Assembly: GCA_020047755.1 (NCBI GenBank)
Contig: JAIFNL010000309.1
Coordinates: forward strand, 1 to 32,012
Reading direction: 5' to 3'
Origin: Bacteroidota bacterium
Lineage (GTDB): Bacteria > Bacteroidota > Bacteroidia > Bacteroidales > JAIFNL01
DNA: 32,012 nucleotides
Below, in pieces: positions 2,709 through 3,448 of this stretch (positions within the stretch are counted from its first letter, which is position 1; every line of letters starts with the position of its first letter). The notes under the pieces were generated by a model. The model worked only from the letters and a program-made list of their open reading frames with translations, had not been told where the DNA came from and did not search any database. Made by a program: the position numbers and the translations under genes.

Positions 2709-2851
2709 ATTTAATACACCTATTTCTCATTTATTAATGTTTATTTAAACTATACCCCCTTTTGAGATGGGGTACTGTTATTTTAAATTGCATTTTAACA
2801 ATAAATTAATTAACACGTAAGCATGGAAAATCGAAATTAAGAATCATGTAA

Positions 2852-3303
2852 CCAAGGTTAGTAACTGGTCTGTTTATTTTGATAATTTTTTTTGTAACTA
2901 ATTTTCACGCTACTATTGCGTTTTAATAAGGGAATAAGGTTAGTATTGTGCTATTTGCTTTATTACTAAGGTTAAAAAATTAAAAATAAGGTTTTTATAG
3001 AAAATAATTAAATACTCTTTGTTAAATTTTATTACGTCCTTAAAAACCTTATCTTTTATTTCTTAAACCTTAGTAACTAAATAATTGTAACAATTAATCT
3101 AACCTTATTCCCTTATTTAAAACGTGCAAGAAAACAACTACTAAAATTCTTATCAAAATAAACAGACCAGTTAGAGGTTGTTTAAATTTTATTTTAATTA
3201 GCCCCGACCTAAAGGTCGGGGCTATTGATTTACAATTATTTATATTTTAGTTTGAGTTGCATTAAATTATTCTTTAAAATATTTAAACAACCTCTTAGTA
3301 ACC
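2852..3303. repeat. Long foldback palindrome (interrupted by a MITE)
   Basis: Four pairs of perfect inverted arms share one centre near 3019: 24 bp (2862-2885 with 3150-3173), 18 bp ATAAGGGAATAAGGTTAG (2926-2943 with 3099-3116), 11 bp TTACTAAGGTT (2963-2973 with 3066-3076) and 12 bp ATAAGGTTTTTA (2986-2997 with 3041-3052). The outer arm continues on the left as CCAAGGTTAG (2852-2861); its partner GTAACCTATTGG resumes at 3298 after the inserted element at 3174-3294. The motif AAGGTT recurs throughout each arm. No open reading frame of note lies inside. It could fold into a very long hairpin and may be a non-autonomous foldback element. Confidence 0.8.
3174..3294. mobile_element. 121 bp MITE with 13 bp TIRs and TTA duplication
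   Basis: GAGGTTGTTTAAA (3174-3186) and its exact reverse complement (3282-3294) bound the element, and TTA is duplicated on both sides (3171-3173 and 3295-3297). Removing the element and one TTA restores the outer arm of the surrounding foldback, so the insertion is younger than the foldback. Inside is a strong GC-rich hairpin, TAGCCCCGACC-TAAA-GGTCGGGGCTA (3199-3224 region). A TNA duplication with GAG ends is typical of the IS1031-like branch of the IS5 family; that parentage is inference. No transposase is encoded. Confidence 0.8.
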
Positions 3304-3305
3304 TA

Positions 3306-3448
3306 TTGGTAGCGTAAAAAAATGGTGGCTTTTTGAAAAAGTTCGCTAAGATTGTAAATTTTTCAATTTTTCATGATAAAATAACAATAGAACAATTTAA
3401 CAATGTAACAATTCGTTAATTTCGGTTACTATCAAGTTACGCTATCAA
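3306..3448 (+). repeat. Inverted-repeat element family, copy 1 (143 bp)
   Basis: TTGGTAGCGTAA (3306-3317) and TTACGCTATCAA (3437-3448) form a 12 bp terminal inverted repeat with one mismatch, flanked by TA on each side. The interior matches copies at 20939-21122 and 27885-28069, including AAAAAATGGTGgCTTTTTGAAAA and the GATAAAATAACAATAGAACA segment, but lacks about 41 bp present in the others just before the right end. It lies directly upstream of the promoter of the DUF488 gene. Confidence 0.75.

Follow-up and report, generated by a model that had tools for sequence, protein, structure and literature searches.

A foldback MITE in a Bacteroidales genome that probably joins the ends of a DDE-like insertion sequence to an inverted repeat pair of a Y1 transposase system

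Miniature inverted-repeat transposable elements (MITEs) are dispersed in multiple copies that lack a transposase gene, share their terminal inverted repeats with an autonomous insertion sequence (IS) and are flanked by target-site duplications. In a second class of small repeats, those of the REPtrons/REPINs and TIRtrons of Y1 transposases (RAYT/TIRYT; PMC3733652, PMC6006769), units with a GTAG tag lie inverted on either side of the Y1 gene and are dispersed both singly and as inverted pairs. Among Y1 transposases (TnpA), a Y---Q--HH signature defines subclass 1.2, which generally lacks the typical terminal secondary structures of the IS200 type (PMC6006769).

The locus described here appears to combine both classes. 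It lies in a window of 32,012 nucleotides, the whole stretch of DNA analysed, which is an entire contig (C285) of a fragmented 4.6-Mb Bacteroidota genome (G000). We put the probability at roughly 85% that the feature is a non-autonomous foldback MITE with the ends of a DDE-like IS and, as cargo, two inverted copies of a repeat module, M, belonging to a Y1 system, and that a 121-bp MITE later inserted into its right-hand target duplication. Like other MITEs, the element is short, has inverted ends and a target duplication, occurs in several copies and shares its ends with an IS in a close relative. It differs from them in its interior, which consists of two inverted copies of a Y1-linked repeat rather than IS-derived sequence and makes the whole unit a hairpin.

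Geometry of the element and a nested insertion

The foldback MITE proper spans 304 bp (2866–3169) between a left terminal inverted repeat on the plus strand (TGGTCTGTTTATTTTG, 2866–2881) and a right one on the minus strand (CAAAATAAACAGACCA, 3154–3169). The original prediction of four coaxial perfect inverted arms near position 3019 was borne out, with arms of 24 bp (2862–2885/3150–3173, centre 3017.5), 19 bp (2925–2943/3099–3117, centre 3021; predicted as 18 bp), 11 bp (2963–2973/3066–3076, centre 3019.5) and 12 bp (2986–2997/3041–3052, centre 3019), and the element is 72% identical to its own reverse complement over its full length. This order does exceed that of ordinary DNA: perfect runs that share a centre and are no shorter than 8 bp sum to 24, whereas 200 dinucleotide shuffles gave 18 at most, and the RNA fold of 2840–3310 has an energy of -156.5 kcal/mol versus -76.2 +/- 6.0 for shuffles (z = -13.5). 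Folded without the insert, 2860–3170 remains a single long hairpin (-100 kcal/mol).

The left target duplication is the 9-mer GTTAGTAAC (2857–2865), and its right copy is split by the nested MITE into GTTA (3170–3173) and GTAAC (3298–3302). The outer arm had been thought to continue past a later insertion. That insertion (3174–3294) is real to the base; the outermost pairing, of the 2852–2856 region with ~3303–3309, belongs instead to the target, which is itself palindromic (ACCAAGG-TTAGTAA-CCTATTGGT) and therefore made the arm appear to extend past the insert. The supposed outermost arm is thus largely target site.

The nested 121-bp MITE has the ends GAGGTTGTTTAAA/TTTAAACAACCTC, an internal hairpin (3199–3224), a TTA target duplication (3171–3173 and 3295–3297) and ~20 or more relatives in its own genome. 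Because it sits inside the right-hand target duplication of the foldback element, it must be the younger of the two. Several of its copies have 3-bp T-N-A duplications, a habit of IS5-type elements of the IS1031 group, which are a candidate affiliation for this MITE. Another dispersed palindrome, ATTGATACGATGACTTTAAGTCATCGTATCAAT, occurs elsewhere in the same genome (L002, L007, L055, L057).

Module M and the Y1 transposase genes beside it

Two inverted copies of module M make up the inner arms, and the AAGGTT motifs that had been seen to recur along the arms are the boxes of this separate repeat. The left copy (2925–2996, plus strand) has its boxes at 2925–2941 (AATAAGGGAATAAGGTT), 2964–2973 (TACTAAGGTT) and 2985–2996 (AATAAGGTTTTT), and the right copy (3042–3117, minus strand) at 3042–3053, 3066–3075 and 3101–3117. 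Both fit a consensus of 64 distinct units found in other genomes, in which AATAAGGTAATAAGGTT is followed by ~25 variable bases, CTACTAAGGTT, ~12 bases and AATAAGGTTTT, for a length of ~72 nt (range 68–77 nt). M carries four TAAGG boxes as direct repeats and a GTAG tag within the box CTTAGTAG. Although the tag is that of GTAG REPs, the palindromic stem is missing: 45 single units showed no secondary structure (mean z of +0.66 and +0.21 on the two strands) and the alignment fold scored 0.0, which rules out M as a hairpin REP. Integron attC sites have the layout RYYYAAC/GTTRRRY, to which the AAC/GTT boxes, judged by eye, do not conform.

In a survey of 393 Bacteroidales genomes, a sample of the order, the gapped M pattern was found in 52, often in at least 10 copies, whereas a reversed-pattern control gave no matches. 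Viral contigs contained no M. Adjacent units are inverted in 27 of 30 pairs, and most tail-to-tail pairs have a tight gap of 8–13 nt. In some units (L190, L210) all boxes shift together from AAGGTT to AAGGGA/AAGGGT, as if one co-evolving protein recognised them.

M is tied to Y1 transposase genes. At G004:C9 and G017:C284, tnpA lies between inverted M copies, and its stop codon overlaps the first box. Of the best 30 tnpA loci, 21 reach an identity of 52% or more, and every one of these has M boxes in its vicinity; at 12 of them the boxes are inverted on both sides of the gene, as in REPtrons and TIRtrons. The nine loci below 45% identity have just three stray boxes. M is present in 15 of the 21 genomes with a tnpA of this clade versus 37 of the 372 others (Fisher p = 2.8e-10, for related genomes that are not independent). 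Two observations count against our explanation: no tnpA of the clade was detectable in 37 of the 52 M-bearing genomes, and none is present in the element's own genome, where the best match has 42% identity and no M beside it. The M-adjacent transposase matches Y1_Tnp (E = 4e-20), and all readable clade members have the HUH and Y---Q--HH signatures of subclass 1.2. M therefore resembles the repeats of REPtrons/REPINs and TIRtrons in its arrangement, dispersal and tag, but differs from them in being hairpin-free (z about 0), in its direct TAAGG boxes and in its association with a Y---Q--HH enzyme, a link that may be new.

More distant Y---Q--HH genes have other inverted flanking repeats, in which the hairpins GGTGCGTAGCACC or GGGCGTAGCCC lie beside ATCTTTGTAG (L157, L201, L204). 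At E < 1e-3, such flank repeats were detected in 14 of 19 real pairs, compared with 1/28 and 0/33 distal controls and 5/57 swapped pairs. Because the M box CTTAGTAG resembles CTTTGTAG of these repeats, M may be a variant with direct CCTTAT boxes in place of the hairpins. TnpA may act on M, and M pairs may spread as single-stranded intermediates.

Outer ends, copies and a same-ended IS

Among 247 genomes of the order, exact matches to the end TGGTCTGTTTATTTTG are confined to G000 (5) and G001 (26), a same-genus genome and the nearest relative among those compared. The two further copies in the element's own genome (C244:13584–13903, 90%; C231:1–224, 85%) are both at contig ends, as expected because repeats break assemblies; the genomes are drafts and some copies are partial. 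In G001, complete short end pairs bound homologous elements of 199–258 bp, and one locus (L110) is a 32-bp end-to-end remnant. Direct 9-mers flank the paired ends of G001 copies: they are identical in four (L067, L071, L105, L106), have one mismatch in two (L066, L111) and two in another (L104), and are lost in L107. The preferred 9-mer in the genus follows GTNNNNNAC. In G001, the palindrome AACTTTGCCAAAGTTTTAAACTTTGGCAAAGTT accommodates many of the copies in its loop, and L040 holds an uninterrupted relative of it. This palindrome is a favoured target of TGGTCTG elements (L040, L104, L106).

The search for an empty site was less successful than that for homologous copies. With the DUF488 neighbour as an anchor, we found no orthologous empty site that would directly match this insertion, only a 30% homologue in a different context, and this too counts against our explanation.

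G001 also contains an IS (C83; L104 758–2604) whose 16-bp ends are identical to those of the element and lie 1847 bp apart, enclosing reading frames of 82, 347 and 123 aa. The proteins of the IS had no matches in Pfam, NCBIfam or PDB, including a PDB profile search, and so none to a known transposase profile; an intact relative from Thiodictyon also had no Pfam match. Relatives of the 347-aa frame occur on Nostoc and Thiodictyon plasmids at about 27–32% identity. The Thiodictyon protein is a single 571-aa frame, and the Nostoc gene is preceded by a small separate ORF, as in G001. Both plasmid elements end in TAGGGTGTTGAYTTTG-like repeats, which resemble the TGGTCTG-element ends, and both are surrounded by 9-bp duplications (CAATGAAAC in Nostoc, CCCACCACC in Thiodictyon). 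The likeness thus extends to a homologous transposase, similar ends and the duplication, although identity is 28–38% and the proteins are annotated as hypothetical (for example, WP_100918684.1) rather than as transposase in the records seen. Duplications of 5 or 7 bp were also weighed, as AAC...GTT at the ends leaves the boundary ambiguous, but these relatives decide in favour of 9 bp.

In an alignment of four rows, the IS transposase shows conserved D, D and E-like positions. Its AlphaFold model reached a pLDDT of just 30 and was discarded, which leaves sequence as the sole basis for an RNase H-like DDE fold; the enzyme is probably DDE-like and would use DDE chemistry. The sole IS copy is split into its three frames at two A9 runs, and the window's own genome has no gene for this transposase; we count both facts against our explanation. 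Taken with the further copies, the 9-bp target duplication and the same-ended IS in G001, the missing gene also agrees with the original suggestion of a non-autonomous foldback transposon, one that has presumably transposed by being mobilised in trans.

Could the mobile unit instead be the inner M pair, REPIN-like and moved by a Y1 transposase, with the outer repeats as incidental flanks? M does occur outside this element as solitary copies and inverted pairs, in the same and in other genomes. Copies in G000 and G001, however, start and stop exactly at TGGTCTG...CAGACCA with 9-bp duplications, which Y1 transposition is not expected to generate. We consider this alternative unlikely and, for this copy, largely excluded.

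A host regulatory or structural element, such as a long RNA hairpin, attenuator or cruciform, is less probable still. The fold is strong, and the site is intergenic between two divergent genes, a minus-strand P-II gene adjoining an ammonium transporter gene and a plus-strand DUF488 gene. Yet an Rfam search of the whole window gave no matches, other copies lie in unrelated places, the ends and target duplication are of transposon type, and single M units are unstructured; a tRNA/tmRNA search also found none. The earlier proposal of a DNA or RNA structural element thus gained no positive support, and the hairpin is accounted for by the two mobile layers.

It is very improbable that the foldback arose by inverted duplication of half an IS end, with the M motifs as chance AT-rich boxes: the two halves are near-symmetric, but M is a defined module that adjoins tnpA genes and is missing from the IS itself, and the M survey excludes such an event except as the first origin of the inverted pair.

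A probable chimera of two transposition systems

Returning to a foldback MITE with IS ends and Y1 cargo, we find M boxes in all seven of the complete short G001 elements examined and none in the 1847-bp IS. The M pair therefore came with the founding MITE, not with the IS, and M was rejected as a terminal binding site of the TGGTCTG IS. The inverted M pair, as cargo, gives the element its hairpin shape, and the enclosure of single-strand Y1 inverted repeats by the ends of a double-strand DDE-like IS makes it a chimera. A different MITE in G017, with GGCATTTTTCATTTAT ends (~40 end matches), likewise contains an M pair, but with the order of the two copies reversed; its GGCATTTTTCAT ends would place it in an IS family unrelated to that of the TGGTCTG ends. 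Such chimeric MITEs therefore seem to have arisen at least twice.

How might the element move? A DDE-like transposase from a little-described IS family, provided in trans, would recognise its two ends of 16–17 bp (TGGTCTGTTTATTTTG...). Once bound to both, the transposase could cut the element out or copy it, and insertion at cuts staggered by 9 bp within the loop of a short palindrome would create the 9-bp duplication (GTTAGTAAC here). By a possible second route, a Y1 TnpA could act on the M pair as a single strand during replication; we only infer such a route, because no TnpA of the clade was found in the element's own genome.

A broader proposal is less likely than not, though far from negligible. 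In it, M would represent a novel kind of recognition element for Y1 transposases, one that forms no hairpin, combines four TAAGG boxes with a GTAG tag and is cognate to a single clade of subclass 1.2. M would be distributed over many families of Bacteroidales and would have been captured again and again, as an inverted pair, by MITEs of unrelated IS families, and two unrelated transposases could move the resulting chimeras.

Our results point to a DDE-like IS family that neither Pfam nor NCBIfam contains, and they offer the poorly understood TnpA subclass 1.2 a concrete candidate substrate. The element itself would be an example of small mobile elements assembled out of parts from two unrelated transposition systems.
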